The translations under genes and the position numbers were made by a program. Shown piece after piece: positions 4,828 through 14,536 of a DNA stretch of 14,536 nt; position 1 is the stretch's first letter; every line of letters begins with the position of its first letter. This DNA comes from Clostridium sp. CAG:413. GTDB lineage: Bacteria > Bacillota > Clostridia > Oscillospirales > Acutalibacteraceae. The DNA is taken from contig FR888204.1 in assembly GCA_000431775.1 (NCBI GenBank), forward strand, positions 1 to 14,536, in the 5' to 3' direction. The notes under the pieces were generated by a model that saw only the letters and a list, made by a program, of their open reading frames with translations, was not told the DNA's origin and ran no database searches.

Positions 4828-6408
4828 TTATTTGCCGCTGTCGCCGTAGTTTGAGAGCACGCGAGCTGAGGGGTCGTTGACGTTGCAGCCCTCCCACTCC
4901 TTGTTGGGCATCCAAAAGTCGGCGACCATTTCCGCCTGACCGGGGTAATACTTCTCAAACAGCTCTCTGTAGAGAAGCGACTCCTTGGTGAACGGGGCGG
5001 CGAAGGTGTATTTCTTGCATTTTTCGGCGAATTTCTCGTCGGTGTATTGCTCCTCGGCGTATGCCTTGAGGTCGTCGACCATTGAGTGACCGACGGCGTC
5101 GCTGAAGGCGGCCTTCTCACGCATGAGTATGTCGCGGGGCAGATAATCGCCCTCGAAGGCGTGGCGCAGCAGATATTTGCCCTTGCCGTAGACATTCATC
5201 TTGATGGCAGGGTCAAGGCTCATAACGTAGCGCACGAAATCCAGATCGCCGAACGGCACTCTCGCCTCGAGCGAGTTGACCGAGATGCAGCGGTCGGCGC
5301 GCAATACGTCGTACATATAAAGCTCTCTGATGCGCTTCTCCGCTTCCTTCTGGAATTCGGCGGGTGAGGGAGCAAAGTCGGTGTATTTATAGCCGAAAAG
5401 CTCATCGGAAATTTCGCCCGTGAGGATAACTCTGAGGTCTGTGTTCTCATGGATGTACTTGCAGACAAGATACATGCCTATCGAAGCCCTTATCGTCGTG
5501 ATATCATAGGTGCCGAGCAGGGCGACCACCTCGGGCAGAGCCTTGATGACGTCGTCCTCGGTGATGATGACCTCGGTGTGGTCTGCGCCGATATAGTCGG
5601 CGACCTCCTTGGCATATTTGAGGTCGATGGCGTCGGTGCTCATGCCTATGGCAAAGGTCTTGATGGGCTTGTCGGAGAGCCTTGCGGCGACGGCGCATAC
5701 CAGAGACGAATCAAGTCCGCCGGAGAGCAGGAAACCGACGGGTGCGTCGGCGTCAAGCCTTTTCTCAATGCCCGCTACCAGCTTCTCTTTTATCTTGGCG
5801 CAGGCGGTCTCGACATCGTCGTGACAGACGGTCTCGGCGCGGCTGATATCGTCGTAGCAGACGAATTCGCCGTTCTTATAGTAGTGCCCCGGCGGGAACG
5901 GCATAATTTTGCCGCAGATGCCCACAAGGTTTTTTGCTTCGCTGGCAAAGACTATTGAGCCTTCATCGGAGTAGCCGTAGAAGAGCGGCCTTATGCCGAT
6001 AGGATCCCTTGCGGCGATATATTCGCCCGTATTGCCGTCGTAAATTATCATCGCGAATTCGGCGTCGAGCAGTTTAAACATCCCGACCCCGTACTCCTCA
6101 TAAAGGGGGAGTATCAGCTCGCAGTCCGAGCCGCTCACGAAGCTGTAGCCCTTGGCCTCCAGCTCTTTTTTCAGCTTGCGGAAGCCGTAAAGCTCGCCGT
6201 TGCACACGGCGTAGCTGCCGTCGCGGTAGAAGGGCTGCATTCCGCTCTCGTCAAGCCCCATTATGGAGAGGCGGTGAAAGCCGAGCAGACCCTTGCCCGT
6301 ATCTGTCACTCTCGTCATATCGGGGCCTCTTGATTTTGTTTTGTTAAGCCCCTCCTTGAATTTATCTTTTGATATGCCGGTACCGCAGTACCCCATTATC
6401 GAACACAT
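4828..6408 (-). CDS. asnB: Asparagine synthetase, glutamine-hydrolysing
   Basis: This 526-residue two-domain enzyme makes asparagine from aspartate, ATP and glutamine in the cytosol. The N-terminal Ntn-hydrolase glutaminase domain (about 1-190) starts 'MCSIMGY', so Cys2 becomes the N-terminal nucleophile. 'SRGPD' (26-30), 'HRLSI' (45-49), 'NGELYG' (70-75) and 'GSDCE' (93-97) build the glutamine site. The synthetase domain carries the PP-loop 'SGGLDSS' (229-235) and 'GEISDELFGY', with 'SLEARVPFGD' further on. The length fits AsnB. GGAGG precedes the ATG by seven bases. It lies 131 bases after a GNAT gene in the guaA direction; I found no convincing promoter of its own, only an imperfect hairpin in that gap. 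Confidence 0.95.
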   Translation of the reverse strand: MCSIMGYCGTGISKDKFKEGLNKTKSRGPDMTRVTDTGKGLLGFHRLSIMGLDESGMQPFYRDGSYAVCNGELYGFRKLKKELEAKGYSFVSGSDCELILPLYEEYGVGMFKLLDAEFAMIIYDGNTGEYIAARDPIGIRPLFYGYSDEGSIVFASEAKNLVGICGKIMPFPPGHYYKNGEFVCYDDISRAETVCHDDVETACAKIKEKLVAGIEKRLDADAPVGFLLSGGLDSSLVCAVAARLSDKPIKTFAIGMSTDAIDLKYAKEVADYIGADHTEVIITEDDVIKALPEVVALLGTYDITTIRASIGMYLVCKYIHENTDLRVILTGEISDELFGYKYTDFAPSPAEFQKEAEKRIRELYMYDVLRADRCISVNSLEARVPFGDLDFVRYVMSLDPAIKMNVYGKGKYLLRHAFEGDYLPRDILMREKAAFSDAVGHSMVDDLKAYAEEQYTDEKFAEKCKKYTFAAPFTKESLLYRELFEKYYPGQAEMVADFWMPNKEWEGCNVNDPSARVLSNYGDSGK

Positions 6409-8643: not shown

Positions 8644-10734
8644 TTACCTTACGCCGAAAAGCAGCTCGCCGTATGAGGGATACGGCCATGCCTCGGCGGA
8701 GGAGACGGTCTCCATCTCGTCGACCGCTATGCGAAGCTCTCTCATGTCGTCGAGAATGGTTGATTTATAGAATTCCGCGAGCTCCACCATGTCGTCGACC
8801 GACTTGGAGGTGAGCAGATCCTGCTCGAGCTTCTTCACCGTTCTGTGGGCTGCGCCGATGAGGGCGGTGAGCATCTTGAGGCTGTCCTTCTCGTAGGAGC
8901 AGTCGGCGTCGGGGAGCACGGCGATCTTCTTCGCGACAGCGTCGCCGAGCTGAGCCGAGTAGCCGCTCATTGCGGGCAGGATATCCTTGCGTACCATGTC
9001 GAGCATGGTGAGCGCCTCAATGTTTATGATCTTGCAGTAGTTCTCAAGGCGCACCTCGTGACGGGCGGTGAATTCCTCAAGGGTAAATACCTTGTGGGAG
9101 GTGAAGAGGTCAACATTCTTTTTGTCAAGCATATGTGCAAGCGCGTCGGGGGTGGTCTTGAGGTTTGAAAGCCCTCTCTTCTCCGCCTCGGCTACCCAGG
9201 ATTCGTCGTAGCCGTCGCCGTTAAAGATTATGCGCTTGTGTTCTTTTATCGTCTTTTTGATGAGATCGTGCAGAGCGCCCTCAAAGTCCTCGGCGCCCTC
9301 AAGCTCGTCGGCAAACTGCTTCAGCTCCTCGGCAACGGTCGTGTTCAGCACGGTGTTGGCGCAGGAGATGGAGGAGGCGGAGCCGAGCATACGGAATTCA
9401 AACTTGTTGCCCGTGAAAGCGAAGGGCGAGGTCCTGTTCCTGTCGGTGGTGTCCTTCGGGAATTTCGGAAGGGTGTGGACGCCGATACGCATGATGTCTC
9501 TCTCTTTGGCGTCGTATTCACGGTCGTCCTCTATCGTTTCAAGGATATCCGAAAGATCGGAGCCGAGGAACATCGAGACGATTGCGGGCGGCGCTTCGTT
9601 CGCGCCGAGACGGTGGTCGTTGCCTGCGGAGGCGACGGAGATACGCAGCATATCCTGATATTCATCGACCGCCTTGATAACGGCGCACAGGAAGAGCAGG
9701 AACTGAGCGTTCTCATAGGGGGTTTCGCCCGGCTCAAGCAGGTTTACGCCGGTGTCGGTCGATATCGACCAGTTATTGTGTTTGCCGCTGCCGTTGACCC
9801 CGGCAAAGGGCTTCTCGTGGAGCAGGCAGACCATGTCGTGTTTCTTTGCGACCTTCTGCATTATCTCCATGGTGAGCTGGTTGTGATCTGCGGCAATATT
9901 GGTGGTGGTGAAGATGGGCGCCATTTCGTGCTGAGCGGGGGCGACCTCATTATGCTCGGTCTTGGCAAGCACGCCGACCTTCCAAAGCTCGTCGTTCAGC
10001 TCCTTCATAAATGCGGCGACTCTCGGCTTGATAGCGCCGAAGTAATGGTCGTCAAGCTCCTGACCCTTGGGAGGTCTTGCGCCGAAAAGGGTTCTGCCGG
10101 TATATATAAGGTCTTTTCTCTGATCATAGAGCTTCTTGTCAACAAGGAAGTATTCCTGCTCGGGGCCGACGGTGGTCTTGACCGAGGAGACATCCTCATT
10201 GCCGAAGAGCTTCAGCACTCTCATCGCCTGACGGTTGATGGCTTCCATTGAGCGGAGCAGCGCTGTCTTCTGATCGAGCGCCTCGCCGCCGTAGGAGCAG
10301 AACACGGTGGGTATGCAGAGCACGCCGTCTTTAATAAATGTATAGGAGGTGGCGTCCCATGCGGTGTAGCCCCGCGCCTCAAAAGTGGCTCTAAGGCCGC
10401 CGGAGGGGAACGAGGAGGCGTCCGGCTCGCCCTTGATAAGCTCCTTGCCGGAGAATTCCATTATGACCTTGCCGCCCTTGGGGGAGATGAAGCTGTCGTG
10501 CTTTTCTGCGGTGATGCCCGTCATCGGCTGGAACCAATGCGTGAAGTGGGTGGCGCCTTTCTCGATAGCCCAGTCCTTCATAGCGTTTGCAACGACGTTC
10601 GCAACGCCGAGGTCAAGGTGCTTGCCGTTCTTTATCGTTTTTTGAAGCGCCTTGTAGGTTTCCTTTGGGAGCCTTGCTTCCATAGTGCTGTCGTCAAAAA
10701 CCATTGAGCCGAAGATTTCCGTTACACTGCTCAT
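8644..10734 (-). CDS. glnN: Glutamine synthetase type III
   Basis: This 696-residue enzyme has the size and architecture of GSIII (about 700 residues, against about 450 for GSI). It makes glutamine from glutamate, ammonia and ATP. Visible are the GSIII N-terminal motif '[12 protein letters not shown]' (62-73), the metal-binding acidic strand 'GPEQEYF' (Glu192, Glu194), '[11 protein letters not shown]' (260-270), '[10 protein letters not shown]' with His319, and '[12 protein letters not shown]' (372-383), which holds the catalytic flap Glu380. AGGAG stands upstream of the ATG at 10734. It is preceded by a roughly 160-nt leader with two ANTAR-type hairpins and a terminator, so expression is probably set by antitermination. 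It diverges from glnA. Confidence 0.96.
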
Positions 10735-10765: not shown

Positions 10766-10815
10766 AAAAGCGACAAGGGGATTTATGGTGCTGCCATAAC
10801 GACGCCCTTGTCGCT
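10766..10815 (-). terminator. Leader terminator of glnN (attenuator)
   Basis: On the minus strand the arm 10815-10805 (AGCGACAAGGG) pairs perfectly over 11 positions with 10779-10769 (CCCTTGTCGCT). An apical stem (10799-10794 with 10788-10783) carries the loop CAGCA, and a TTTTCTC tail follows. It ends about 30 bases before the glnN ATG, inside the leader, so it should stop transcription before the gene. Its 5' arm is the same RNA as the second ANTAR-type hairpin. Confidence 0.82.
10798..10815 (-). promoter_or_regulatory. ANTAR-type antiterminator hairpin P2 in the glnN leader
   Basis: On the minus strand AGCGAC (10815-10810) pairs with GTCGTT (10803-10798; one G-U pair) around the six-base loop AAGGGC, which has A at loop position 1 and G at position 4. 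All of its 5' arm and half of its loop (AAGG plus the next G) belong to the terminator arm, so this hairpin and the terminator cannot coexist. That is the expected geometry for the second hairpin of an ANTAR target. Confidence 0.75.
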
Positions 10816-10847
10816 GAATTTTGTAATATTGCCATGAAAATGAAAAT

Positions 10848-10875
10848 CCGCAGACAGCATCGTTGCTGTCTGCGG
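10848..10875 (-). promoter_or_regulatory. ANTAR-type antiterminator hairpin P1 in the glnN leader
   Basis: On the minus strand an 11-pair perfect stem (10875-10865 with 10858-10848, CCGCAGACAGC/GCTGTCTGCGG) closes the six-base loop AACGAT, with A at position 1 and G at position 4. No T run follows, so it is not a terminator. Thirty-two bases separate it from the second hairpin. Two such hairpins in tandem are the known recognition element of ANTAR proteins such as EutV. Confidence 0.78.
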
Positions 10876-10900
10876 CGTCCTTGTCGCTTTTATGCTAGGC

Positions 10901-10929
10901 ATTTTACCACCATGAAATCGGTTTGTCAA
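10901..10929 (-). promoter_or_regulatory. glnN promoter
   Basis: The minus strand has TTGACA (10924-10929), a 17-base spacer and TAAAAT (10901-10906), placing the start of transcription near 10894. The resulting leader of about 160 nt contains both ANTAR-type hairpins and the attenuator. Confidence 0.78.
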
Positions 10930-10970: not shown

Positions 10971-10999
10971 TTGACAATGCACGAGGATATGAGTATAAT
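10971..10999 (+). promoter_or_regulatory. glnA promoter, full consensus
   Basis: TTGACA (10971-10976), a 17-base spacer and TATAAT (10994-10999) form a perfect sigma-A consensus. Transcription should start near 11004-11006, at the foot of the first leader hairpin. Such a strong promoter with a terminator directly after it implies that control is exerted after initiation. Confidence 0.88.
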
Positions 11000-11003
11000 T
11001 ATG

Positions 11004-11025
11004 CAGTAAACAAGGACGTTTGCTG
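11004..11025 (+). promoter_or_regulatory. ANTAR-type antiterminator hairpin in the glnA leader
   Basis: CAGTAAAC (11004-11011) pairs with GTTTGCTG (11018-11025; eight pairs, one G-U) around the six-base loop AAGGAC, with A at position 1 and G at position 4. The loop and the 3' arm are also the 5' arm of the leader terminator, so the two folds exclude each other. It lies at the very 5' end of the predicted transcript, leaving no room for an upstream partner hairpin. Confidence 0.7.
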
Positions 11026-11064
11026 GTCTGGCGAGGAGCCAGGGCGGCAGCGTCCTCTTTTTTT
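11013..11064 (+). terminator. Leader terminator of glnA (attenuator)
   Basis: AGGAC (11013-11017) pairs with GTCCT (11052-11056), GCTG (11022-11025) with CAGC (11048-11051), and TCTGGC (11027-11032) with GCCAGG (11038-11043) around the loop GAGGA. Seven T follow at 11058-11064. The stem has a four-base bulge and an internal loop. An alternative shorter stem, GAGGAGCC with GGC-AGCG-TCCTC, would end at the same T run. It stands 44 bases before the glnA ATG. Confidence 0.8.
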
Positions 11065-11107: not shown

Positions 11108-12316
11108 ATGATATACACGGCGAGAGAAGTATACGATTTTGTCCGGCAGGAGGATGTCAAATTCATCCGCCTCGCTTTCTGCGACGTGAACGGCAAGCAG
11201 AAAAATATATCCATAACGCCCGACGAATTGCCCAGAGCCTTTTCCGACGGCATTTCGTTTGACGCCTCCGCTATCAAGGGCTTCGGCGACGAGGTTGGCT
11301 CGGATCTGCTGCTCTTCCCCGTGCCCTCGACCCTCAATATTCTCCCGTGGCGGTCTTCGCACGGCAATGTAATAAGAATGTTTTGCTCGATGAAATACCC
11401 CGACGGCACTCAGTTTGAGAAGGATTCGAGGATGATACTCCAAAGAGCCGTCGACGCGGCCGCCGCAAAGGGCGTGAGCGTTCAGTTCGGTGCGGAGTTT
11501 GAATTCTATCTCTTTAATACCGATGAGAAGGGTATGCCCACCGACGAGCCTTTTGACCGCGCGGGTTATATGGACGTCGCCCCCGAGGATAGGGGCGAGA
11601 ACGCCCGCAGAGAGATTTGCCTGACCCTGCTTGAGATGGGCATAAAGCCCGAAAGCTCCCACCATGAGGAGGGCCCGGGTCAGAACGAGATAGACTTCCG
11701 CTACAGCGATGCCATGACTGCCGCCGACAATGCGATGAATTTTATGACCGTCGTCAAGGCTGCCGCTCAGAGGAACGGCATCTACGCCGATTTCTCTCCG
11801 AAGCCTCTGCCCGGTGAGAGCGGCAACGGCCTACATATAAATATGTCGGTCAAGACCGCCGACGGCGAGGATCACACCAACGCATTCATGGCGGGCATAC
11901 TTGCCCATATCAAAGAAATGACCGCTTTTCTCAACCCGACCGAGGATTCATATAAGCGCCTCGGCGAGAAGAAAGCCCCGAAATATATCACATGGTCGCC
12001 CGAAAACCGCTCGCAGCTCATACGCATTCCCGCCGCCAAGGGCGAATACAGGCGCATAGAGCTTCGCTCGCCCGACCCGACGGCGAACCCCTACATCGCA
12101 TATGCTCTGCTCATCATGGCGGGGCTTGACGGCATCGAACGTGAGCTTACCGACCCCGAGGCCGTCAACGTCAATCTTTATAAGGCTGACAGCAGCGTCA
12201 CCGAGCCGCTCGACAGATTGCCCGCGTCGCTCGACGAAGCGGTAGCCGTTGCCGAGGGCAGCGACTTCGTTCGCGGCGTTATCGGTATGAATATCACCGA
12301 TTTTCTCGGCATTTGA
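11108..12316 (+). CDS. glnA: Glutamine synthetase type I-like protein, short, flap Glu replaced by Lys
   Basis: This 402-residue protein is clearly of the clostridial GSI type: 'FDASAIKGF' (51-59), metal ligands 'GAEFEF' (Glu130, Glu132), 'SHHEEGPGQNEIDF' (Glu187, Glu194), 'GNGLHINMS' (His243), 'DSYKRL' (Arg284), 'NRSQLIRIP' (300-308) and 'RRIELRSPDP' (Glu318, Arg320). Two features are odd. The flap motif, normally ...EAP, reads GEKKAP (286-291), with Lys289 in place of the Glu that takes a proton from bound ammonium (Glu327 in Salmonella). The C terminus stops at 'NITDFLGI', about 35-45 residues short of the family's tail. It may be an active enzyme, a weak one, or a regulatory homologue. 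GAGG precedes the ATG by seven bases. The nitR-like gene follows after 14 bases. Confidence 0.9.
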   Translation: MIYTAREVYDFVRQEDVKFIRLAFCDVNGKQKNISITPDELPRAFSDGISFDASAIKGFGDEVGSDLLLFPVPSTLNILPWRSSHGNVIRMFCSMKYPDGTQFEKDSRMILQRAVDAAAAKGVSVQFGAEFEFYLFNTDEKGMPTDEPFDRAGYMDVAPEDRGENARREICLTLLEMGIKPESSHHEEGPGQNEIDFRYSDAMTAADNAMNFMTVVKAAAQRNGIYADFSPKPLPGESGNGLHINMSVKTADGEDHTNAFMAGILAHIKEMTAFLNPTEDSYKRLGEKKAPKYITWSPENRSQLIRIPAAKGEYRRIELRSPDPTANPYIAYALLIMAGLDGIERELTDPEAVNVNLYKADSSVTEPLDRLPASLDEAVAVAEGSDFVRGVIGMNITDFLGI

Positions 12317-12330
12317 CGGGGGTGACGGTT

Positions 12331-12915
12331 ATGACGAGCGGGAGAACGCAATACCGTGTTCTTATCGTTTCTGCCGTCGAGAAAATATACGAGTATATCA
12401 CCGAGATCCTGCCTCCCGGCGAATTTTCACCGATACTGCGAGCCGCCAGCGCAGGCGAGGCAAAGCGTATGCTTGTTTCCGACGAAGCAGATATAGTAAT
12501 AATAAATACGCCGCTGCCCGATGAATTCGGCACGGAGCTTGCCCTCGACCTCTCCGGGGGCACGGCGGGTGTGCTGCTCCTTGTGAAGAACGATTATTTC
12601 GACCAGGTGTGCTACAAGGTCGAGCGCGAGGGAGTGCTCACCGTCGGCAAGCCGAGCTCGAAGCAGACTCTTTACGGCGCGGTCAAGCTCGCCGCCGCAA
12701 TGAGCGCAAGGCTCGCCAAAATGGAGCGCAAAAATAAAACGCTCCAGGAAAAAATGGCGGATATCCGCACGGTCAACCGTGCCAAATGGCTGCTTATCGA
12801 GAATCTCAACATGACCGAGAGGGACGCCCATTATTATATTGAGAAGCAGGCTATGAATATGCGGCTCTCGCGCCACGAGGTGGCGGAGAACATAATCCGC
12901 ACCTATGATAAGTAA
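12331..12915 (+). CDS. nitR: ANTAR-domain RNA-binding antiterminator, NitR-like, with degenerate receiver
   Basis: This 194-residue protein has an N-terminal receiver-like fold (about 8-120), a charged helical linker (about 124-148) and a C-terminal ANTAR domain (about 140-190: 'NRAKWLLIENLNMTERDAHYYI' region and 'HEVAENIIR'). ANTAR domains bind paired hairpins with A1/G4 six-base loops and prevent terminator formation. The receiver lacks the chemistry of phosphorylation: strand 1 ends 'VLIVSAVE' (no acidic pair), strand 3 ends 'IVIINTP' with Asn59 in place of Asp, and only Lys107 remains. The gene directly follows glnA, as nitR does in solventogenic clostridia. ATG at 12331 is chosen for its GGGGGTGA site; a TTG at 12313 overlapping the glnA stop is the alternative. 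Likely targets are the glnN and glnA leaders. Confidence 0.85.
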   Translation: MTSGRTQYRVLIVSAVEKIYEYITEILPPGEFSPILRAASAGEAKRMLVSDEADIVIINTPLPDEFGTELALDLSGGTAGVLLLVKNDYFDQVCYKVEREGVLTVGKPSSKQTLYGAVKLAAAMSARLAKMERKNKTLQEKMADIRTVNRAKWLLIENLNMTERDAHYYIEKQAMNMRLSRHEVAENIIRTYDK

Positions 12916-12970: not shown

Positions 12971-14536
12971 ATGAAAAGGACGAAATACATCTTTGTAACG
13001 GGCGGCGTTGTATCCGGCCTCGGCAAGGGCATCACCGCCGCCTCGCTGGGCAGGCTGCTCAAGGCAAGGGGGCTGAAGGTCGCGGCTCAGAAGCTCGACC
13101 CCTATATCAATGTTGACCCCGGCACCATGAGCCCCTATCAGCACGGTGAGGTCTATGTCACCGAGGACGGTGCCGAGACCGACCTTGACCTCGGCCATTA
13201 CGAGCGCTTCATCGACGAAAACCTCAACAAATACTCAAACCTCACCACCGGTAAAGTTTATTGGAACGTGCTCAATAAAGAGCGCAGAGGCGAATATCTC
13301 GGCTCCACCGTGCAGGTCATTCCGCACGTCACCAACGAGATAAAGGATTTCGTCTATTCCGTAGCCAAAAAGACCGACGCCGACGTCGTTATCACCGAGA
13401 TAGGCGGCACGATAGGCGATATCGAGTCGCAGCCCTTCCTTGAGGCGGTCAGACAGATATCCCTCGAGGTCGGTAAAGAAAACAGCCTTTTCATCCACGT
13501 TACTCTCGTTCCCTTCCTCAGAGGCTCAGACGAGCATAAGTCGAAGCCCACTCAGCACTCCGTCAAGGAGCTTCAGGGCATGGGCGTTAAGCCCGATATC
13601 ATCATCTTGCGCTGCGACGAGCCGCTTGAGGAGTCGATATTTAAGAAGATCTCGATGTTCTGCAACGTCAAGCCCGACTGCGTTATCGAGAATATAACTC
13701 TCCCGATTCTTTACGAAGCGCCGATAATGCTTGAGAAGAGCAACTTCTCCTCGATAGTCTGCCGCGAGCTGGGCATAGACGCCCCCGAGATAGACATGAC
13801 CGAGTGGAATGAAATGCTCGAGCGCATACATAACCGCTCAAAGACCGTCACCATCGGCCTTGTCGGCAAATATGTGCAGCTTCACGACGCTTATCTCTCC
13901 GTTGCCGAGGCTCTGCGCCACGCAGGCTACGTCCACGGCACGAGGGTCAGCATCAAGTGGATAGATTCCGAGACCGTCACCGAGGAGAATGTCGGCGAGA
14001 TCCTCTCGGATTGCAGCGGCGTTATAGTCCCCGGCGGCTTCGGCAACAGAGGCATCGAGGGCAAGGTCATCACGGCGAATTACTGCCGCGTCAATAATCT
14101 GCCTTATCTCGGCATCTGCCTCGGTATGCAGACGGCGGTCATCGCCTTCGCCCGCTATGTCGCGGGCATGAGCGACGCCAACTCCGGCGAATTCGACGTC
14201 GACTCGACCCACAAGGTCATCGACTTCCTGCCCGACCAGAGCGACGAGGTCGCAAAGGGCGGCACGCTGCGCCTCGGAGCTTATCCCTGCAAGGTGAAGC
14301 CCGGCACTCAGATGTACCGTGCCTACGGCAAAGAGGAAATATCGGAGCGCCACCGTCACCGTTATGAATTCAACAACGATTACCGCAAGGCTCTGACCGA
14401 CGCAGGCCTTGTCGTCAGCGGCACTTCGCCCGACGATTACATCGTTGAGACCGTAGAAATACCCGAAAATGATTTTTATATCGGAGTGCAGTTCCACCCC
14501 GAGTTCAAGAGCCGCCCGAATAAGGCGCATCCGCTC
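12971..14536 (+). CDS. pyrG: CTP synthase (3' end outside window)
   Basis: 522 codons are visible without a stop; the family length of about 535 means only the last few residues are missing. The enzyme makes CTP from UTP, ATP and glutamine. The N-terminal synthetase domain begins '[20 protein letters not shown]' with its P-loop, followed by '[20 protein letters not shown]' and '[18 protein letters not shown]'. The C-terminal class I glutaminase domain has nucleophile Cys383 in 'LGICLGMQ' and 'QFHPE' with His509 and Glu511. The ATG at 12971 follows a GGGAG site. It is on the same strand as glnA and the ANTAR gene, 55 bases downstream; with no promoter seen, co-transcription is possible. It is another user of glutamine nitrogen. 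Confidence 0.96.

Follow-up and report, generated by a model that had tools for sequence, protein, structure and literature searches.

The stretch of DNA analysed here (the window, 14,536 nucleotides from Clostridium sp. CAG:413) carries, from position 4828 to its end at 14536, clustered genes whose products make or use glutamine: asnB, a GMP synthase gene, glnN, glnA, a gene for an ANTAR protein and a CTP synthase gene. The identities of asnB and of the GMP and CTP synthase genes were read from their translations only. glnN (8644..10734, minus strand) encodes a type III glutamine synthetase (Pfam GSIII_N, 3.8e-80), and it is indeed this gene, starting at 10734, that lies downstream of the leader hairpins described in an initial annotation. 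On the plus strand, glnA (11108..12316), a glutamine synthetase gene with Pfam Gln-synt domains (Gln-synt_C, 3.2e-88), is followed by the ANTAR gene (12313..12915, start possibly at ATG 12331; Pfam PF03861, E 1.2e-15) and, from 12972, by the CTP synthase gene. The ANTAR gene had been placed about 1.5 kb away from the glnN leader; its start was found at a distance of 1.4 kb. The promoters of glnN (10901..10929, minus strand; TTGACA at 10929-10924, a spacer of 17 nt and TAAAAT at 10906-10901) and glnA (10971..10999, plus strand; TTGACA-17-TATAAT) are divergent and lie back to back.

Leaders of glnN and glnA

The glnN leader is a real attenuator consisting of two tandem units, each with a hairpin whose six-base loop has A at position 1 and G at position 4 (A1/G4) beside a terminator of its own. 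The assignment of two units is based on an upstream copy of the hexaloop sequence and on a terminator layout shared with locus L001, the GSIII of which is 85% identical. In the initial annotation, two hexaloop hairpins with the loops AACGAT and AAGGGC had been described. Both hairpins are present, but the AACGAT loop is predicted to close to four nucleotides by an A-U pair. Directly upstream of the AACGAT hairpin lies a second copy of the AAGGGC hairpin sequence, AGCGAC-AAGGAC-GCCGC. This copy contains the hexaloop hairpin of unit 1 (10872..10887, minus strand; GCGAC-AAGGAC-GCCGC with one A.C mismatch), which begins 13 nt past the -10 box and folds weakly (-2.9 kcal). R1, a covariance model that combines promoter and hairpin, matched it together with the glnN promoter (10929-10871, 32.3 bits, E 1.8e-5), and the element is also present, mismatch included, in L001 and L003. 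The AACGAT hairpin itself is the hairpin of terminator 1 (10848..10875, minus strand; -22.3 kcal with a 4-nt loop), which in the window is followed 3' by a weak T-run (ATTTTCATTTTC).

Unit 2, at a spacing of 56 nt from unit 1 by coordinates, is the AAGGGC hairpin (10798..10815, minus strand; AGCGAC-AAGGGC-GTCGTT, -5.8 kcal). As annotated, its 5' arm and loop are common to an 11-pair terminator (10769-10815); including the T-run, this terminator 2 with its 11-bp outer stem covers 10766..10815 on the minus strand. The terminator fold (-24.5 kcal) and the unit 2 hairpin are mutually exclusive. Having no promoter itself, unit 2 obtained only 16 bits (E 0.036) with R1; its counterparts in relatives are A1/G4 hairpins on paired stems. 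The fold of the whole glnN leader has a z of -6.3, i.e. it is beyond chance. AGCGACAAGG is found in unit 1 as well as in unit 2. An alternative pairing of the terminator 2 3' arm with unit 1 is therefore feasible (10769-10780 with 10878-10888, minus strand), and the lowest-energy fold of the entire leader adopts it.

The glnA transcript opens with a hexaloop hairpin of 8 bp (11004..11025, plus strand; GCAGTAAAC-AAGGAC-GTTTGCTGG, loop at 11012-11017, -9.2 kcal). It shares positions 11013-11025 with the glnA leader terminator, which has a T-run (11013..11064, plus strand; -31.3 kcal). The R1 match to the glnA hairpin (35.6 bits, E 3.9e-6) is expected by construction, since this site is part of the training alignment A3. 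A minimal single-hexaloop target, i.e. A1, G4 and at least three closing pairs, is present in unit 2 and in the glnA leader, and in unit 1 if one A.C mismatch is allowed. An Rfam search of the window leaders at E 1 returned a single, sub-threshold and unrelated match.

Hexaloops, terminators and genes in related leaders

Leaders of up to 300 nt 5' of glnN were compared for 80 GSIII loci and the window (81 leaders). When hairpins with a six-base loop, a stem of 4 bp or more and an arm in common with a terminator were counted, 36 belonged to the A1/G4 class, distributed over 33 of the 81 leaders. Any other loop class was represented by at most three hairpins in the same scan, and shuffled leaders contained no such A1/G4 hairpin (0/405). 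A looser scan with 3 bp gave 49 A1/G4 hairpins in 41 of the 81 leaders, the next class having seven.

Compensatory changes in the glnN leaders, for which the initial annotation had suggested examining both of its hairpins, were found in the hexaloop stems, with one hexaloop per terminator. Selection by promoter and loop only yielded 94 sites in 81 sources, 51 of them with at least four of five pairs. For the covariation analysis 41 glnN leaders (36 distinct) were chosen by promoter and loop AANGGN, ignoring pairing. Where a promoter had several such loops, the one furthest 3' was taken; 8 of the 36 distinct rows are out of register. The stem partners pair in 78% of the cells, compared with 27-57% for slid partners. 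Double changes from C-G to A-U occur in eight rows and from G-C to A-U in six. Paired cells, double-change cells and the covariation score exceeded all 500 shuffles; double-change pairs (351/500) and further pair types (201/500) did not beat the shuffles, i.e. two of the five measures. A C-G pair closes the hexaloop in 27 of the 28 rows that were counted, and the loop reads AANGGC in 36 of 47 well-paired sites. Covariation in A3 is selected, because its sites had to show pairing (A3 and R1 were built from sites with at least three of the first four pairs); a further alignment, A2, with two misplaced window rows and one misregistered row, was left out of all claims. Overlapping terminators of -14 kcal or stronger were found at 119 of 137 promoter-anchored sites and in 122 of 1370 cases with shuffled downstream DNA.

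The arrangement that relatives have in common is a single hexaloop per terminator, directly 3' of a TTGACA-17-TATAAT promoter. At 146 promoter-anchored sites, all of which were required to have four of five pairs, the hexaloop hairpin lies -2 to 13 nt from the transcription start as predicted from the promoter. These predicted 5' tails therefore leave no room for an upstream recruiting hairpin. A separate second A1/G4 hexaloop within 20 nt (scanned with 4 bp and no overlap) is absent from 145 of the 146 sites, the sole exception being the AACGAT hairpin of the window. If overlapping hexamers are included, two sites of 146 remain, the window and L228, and in each the second hexamer is the terminator's own loop (window, 10848-10875, AACGAT; L228, minus strand, AAGGGG). 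From this the terminator hairpin could perhaps be an ANTAR site too in these two leaders. Extra units with terminators of their own follow about 45-104 nt downstream in several leaders, e.g. L001, L006, L007, L011 and L016. Judged by its sequence, the target looks like a single-hexaloop class, unlike the published dual ANTAR targets.

R1 was run on 60 of the 80 genomes and matched 47 of them at E 0.01. Matches were read in 30 loci and 40 hand-chosen regions, and the gene families behind them were named from representatives. They comprise glnN, glnA, gltB, amtB with a PII domain, gdhA, asnA, asnB, carA and purF, and further genes for a CN hydrolase, a C26 peptidase, a circularly permuted ATP-grasp protein and a class-II amidotransferase. 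The glnA representative fits best to type I, below the NCBIfam cut-off. R1 also has false positives without such a hairpin, namely L176 (E 1.2e-4) and, at E 0.002-0.01, L191, L192, L193, L196, L197 and L199. In a sample of 391 genomes from one bacterial class, searched at E 0.001, R1 matched 117 genomes, or 116 of 390 when G034, which belongs to the training set, is excluded; some few of the 80 genomes above may be among those without a match. Counting one match per genome, the best match precedes a nitrogen or nucleotide gene in 25 of the 29 top-scoring genomes of this sample: glnN (12), the class-II amidotransferase (5), gdhA (2) and, once each, amtB, asnA, asnB, pyrG, purC and a GATase_3 protein gene. 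pyrG and purC were thus added from the class sample, and also by eye. Of the other four best matches, three precede no recognised gene and one a protein outside the family search. Some ANTAR-bearing genomes whose glnN leader lacks the motif carry it before a same-strand gene upstream of glnN, e.g. asnA in L037.

Second in frequency among the genes that follow the signature is the one for a stand-alone protein with a class-II glutamine amidotransferase domain (L161, L167, L187, L208, L216, L219, L221 and L228); in L161/L162 this gene and glnN are divergent. The circularly permuted ATP-grasp protein was found in L170, L184, L190 (loop GAAGGC) and L194, where its identity comes from Pfam, with no NCBIfam match at E 1e-20; it is a candidate for an amide ligase in glutamine metabolism. 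A class I/II aminotransferase gene stands behind the signature in L188. In L206, L207 (plus strand, from 1501) and L209 (minus strand), the promoter and the hexaloop hairpin ATGAGC-AAAGGC-GCTCAC are immediately followed by a strong terminator, behind which no gene was recognised. Possibly this element of about 60 nt is an ANTAR decoy RNA, an idea comparable to EutX. For Pseudoclostridium thermosuccinogenes under CO2 limitation, overexpression of glutamate synthase, glutamine synthetase, asparagine synthase, an ammonium transporter and LL-diaminopimelate aminotransferase is reported (PMC7282089).

The ANTAR protein and its distribution

The ANTAR domain encoded in the window scores 57.4 bits with Pfam PF03861 (cut-off 27.3). 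It is preceded by a receiver-like domain, in which N occupies the phospho-acceptor position, and by a coiled coil. An AlphaFold model based on 22 sequences (pLDDT 94) resembles RNA-bound EutV (6ww6) with a TM of 0.80, and Rv1626 and AmiR were among the top matches of a structure search. In EutV numbering, K149, E160 and M172 are retained in all 49 sequences compared (window included), R142 is replaced by I in 38/49, Y164 by H in 48/49 and R168 by E in 48/49. The phospho-acceptor D54 is N in 35/49, among them the window protein, and D in 6/49. The window protein thus lacks the acceptor Asp of a phospho-activated response regulator, and from its residues phosphorylation is unlikely. The ANTAR gene lies directly 3' of glnA in 41 of 48 readable loci (50 were fetched), as it does in the window, an adjacency which we take to define the NitR type. 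Among ANTAR domains hand-picked from the class sample, mostly from high scorers, 20 from R1-positive genomes had H164 in 18, E168 in 13 and I142 in 11 cases, versus seven, three and two in 20 from R1-negative genomes.

ANTAR genes occur together with the leader motif. Without G034, 100 of the 116 R1-positive class genomes have an ANTAR gene, compared with 95 of the 274 R1-negative ones (Fisher p 1.2e-21, without correction for kinship); conversely, 95 of the 195 ANTAR-bearing class genomes have no R1 match. Among the 80 genomes with GSIII loci, ANTAR genes were found in 42 of 47 with the glnN motif by either definition and in 14 of 33 without it; with the looser scan alone, the figures are 36/40 and 20/40 (p 1.7e-4). 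In the GSIII tree of these genomes, the few kin-independent pairs comprised five concordant, two discordant and five tied ones (p 0.23). No ANTAR gene was detected in 16 of the 116 R1-positive class genomes, most of which may be incomplete. A re-search of 21 genomes (16 + 5) with A4 gave seven matches that all end at or before position 133 of 197. Distant ANTAR homologues were therefore rejected for these genomes, since the matches stop before the ANTAR part. In the complete chromosome of Treponema ruminis (L031) the relaxed scan found a glnN hexaloop-terminator (R1 E 0.004 and 0.007), and neither Pfam nor the family alignment revealed an ANTAR gene; this leader is either a counter-example or a relic.

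Proposed single-hexaloop antitermination and its alternatives

Comparison at the sequence level establishes the parts, their mutually exclusive folding, the covarying stems, the promoter-proximal position and the co-occurrence with ANTAR genes. We put the probability at roughly 0.8 that the window contains three single-hexaloop attenuators, two in tandem before glnN and one before glnA, each predicted to be held singly by the neighbouring ANTAR protein. The protein would bind one hexaloop hairpin as it leaves the polymerase; the held hairpin shares bases with the terminator, which would then not form, and the polymerase would read into the gene. To reach glnN, the polymerase would need to get past two successive gates of this kind; in this strain both the stem and the U-run of the first one are weak. 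If the protein behaves like NitR of C. saccharobutylicum (PMC6316151), it would be active when nitrogen is short. As the receiver Asp is replaced by Asn, activation would presumably proceed without phosphorylation, perhaps via a partner such as glutamine synthetase. A single hexaloop could suffice if the changed contact residues gave tighter binding; alternatively, a promoter-proximal hexaloop may need no recruiter.

In the initial annotation, the AACGAT and AAGGGC hairpins together made up a dual-hexaloop ANTAR target of the classical kind, in competition with one terminator. Both loops do have A1 and G4, and the last hairpin does overlap the terminator. We nevertheless consider this arrangement very unlikely. 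With the first loop closing to four nucleotides, A1 and G4 are not found in two six-base loops. Nor is there a short linker, the distance being 32 nt between the two annotated hairpins and 56 nt between units 1 and 2. In the eut system of E. faecalis the linkers measure 5-12 nt and 14 nt drastically reduces induction (PMC3369931); 20 additional linker nucleotides abolish antitermination by EutV (PMC8934654), and for actinobacterial dual targets linkers of 2-25 nt have been accepted. L001, which has the same two-unit layout, keeps a terminator at the place of the AACGAT hairpin, followed by U-rich TCTTTTTG, and has ATTTAAAT at the loop position and no A1/G4 hexaloop. Loss of A1/G4 with retention of the terminator, which had been named as evidence against the target, thus applies to the AACGAT hairpin and fails for the AAGGGC hairpin. 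In the covariance-model check that had also been suggested, the former reached 5.2 bits (E 5.3), compared with the 16 bits of unit 2. A separate second hexaloop within 20 nt recurs at no other of the 146 sites, and in L228, the sole overlapping case, the second hexamer is once more the loop of the terminator itself. The AACGAT hairpin was rejected as an ANTAR hairpin by conservation, fold and linker length. The comparison gives good support to ANTAR antitermination of glnN as such; the two-hairpin target is not supported.

Alternatively, the factor holding the hexaloop could be a different one, a small molecule or an RNA chaperone, and the ANTAR protein would merely occur in the same lineages. 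The 16 R1-positive class genomes and T. ruminis in which the ANTAR gene is missing would fit this explanation, and the kin-independent pairs (five versus two, with five ties) are compatible with shared descent. Yet A1/G4 has been published as the ANTAR determinant, the window leaders match no Rfam family, the ANTAR gene stands behind glnA, whose leader bears the motif in the window, and the recognition residues of the ANTAR protein change according to whether the motif is present. We therefore regard another factor as unlikely, although somewhat less so than the dual target. Finally, expression might simply be lowered by constitutive terminators without any regulator, the hairpins being mere side folds of them, and the terminator fold is indeed far stronger (-24.5 versus -5.8 kcal). 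However, there is covariation between the two arms of the hairpin and hardly any variation in its loop, neither of which a terminator alone demands, and the set of genes behind the signature is coherent; of the three alternatives this seems the most improbable.

Beyond the window, single-hexaloop attenuators held by ANTAR proteins probably form a large class without a recruiting hairpin, which would be served by an unphosphorylated AmiR-like subfamily (I142, H164, E168) and govern a nitrogen regulon in many Clostridia. Such a system would catch the first nascent hairpin at most about 30 nt from the start site and would depart from the current two-hexaloop model of ANTAR antitermination. Its regulon would include glnN, glnA, gltB, amtB, gdhA, asnA, asnB, carA, purF and pyrG, and the subfamily would fill the place that GlnR and TnrA have in Bacilli, so that in Clostridia of gut and rumen it would be a candidate for the role of general nitrogen regulator. 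The promoter-and-hairpin signature can be searched for, and Rfam holds no match for the window leaders.

EutV requires both hairpins in vivo, and a single hexaloop is discussed as its minimal binding unit; the 2022 structural paper ends by asking how widely single hexaloops are used (all PMC8934654). About 400 targets from firmicutes and proteobacteria are described as dual (PMC8164766), and in our searches of the open-licence PMC literature we found no description of single-hexaloop attenuators. Widespread natural attenuators with one hexaloop would allow the question of how far single hexaloops are used to be put to the test with a single protein and the glnA leader of about 60 nt.

Like EutV/EutW targets (PMC3369931, PMC8934654), the window leaders have an A1/G4 hexaloop hairpin that overlaps a terminator, and the predicted protein fold is the same. 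Unlike those dual targets, they have one hexaloop per terminator and no recruiting hairpin, and the protein family mostly lacks the acceptor Asp and mostly has I, H and E in place of R142, Y164 and R168 of EutV. AmiR of Pseudomonas aeruginosa (1qo0) likewise has a pseudo-receiver without phosphorylation residues (PMC8934654) and His at the position of residue 164; it differs from the window protein in being held by AmiC. In the sRNA EutX/Rli55 an extra single G4 hexaloop has been suggested as an ANTAR site (PMC8934654), as proposed here, but that RNA acts by sequestration whereas the window elements are attenuators. A further close system is NitR of C. saccharobutylicum, an ANTAR antiterminator of GS/GOGAT genes on nitrogen limitation (PMC6316151, citing Stutz 2007) and, as is predicted for the window protein, a clostridial regulator of glutamine synthetase and nitrogen genes. 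The accessible part of PMC6316151 gives no RNA motif for NitR, whereas here a single hairpin and a wider set of genes have been defined.
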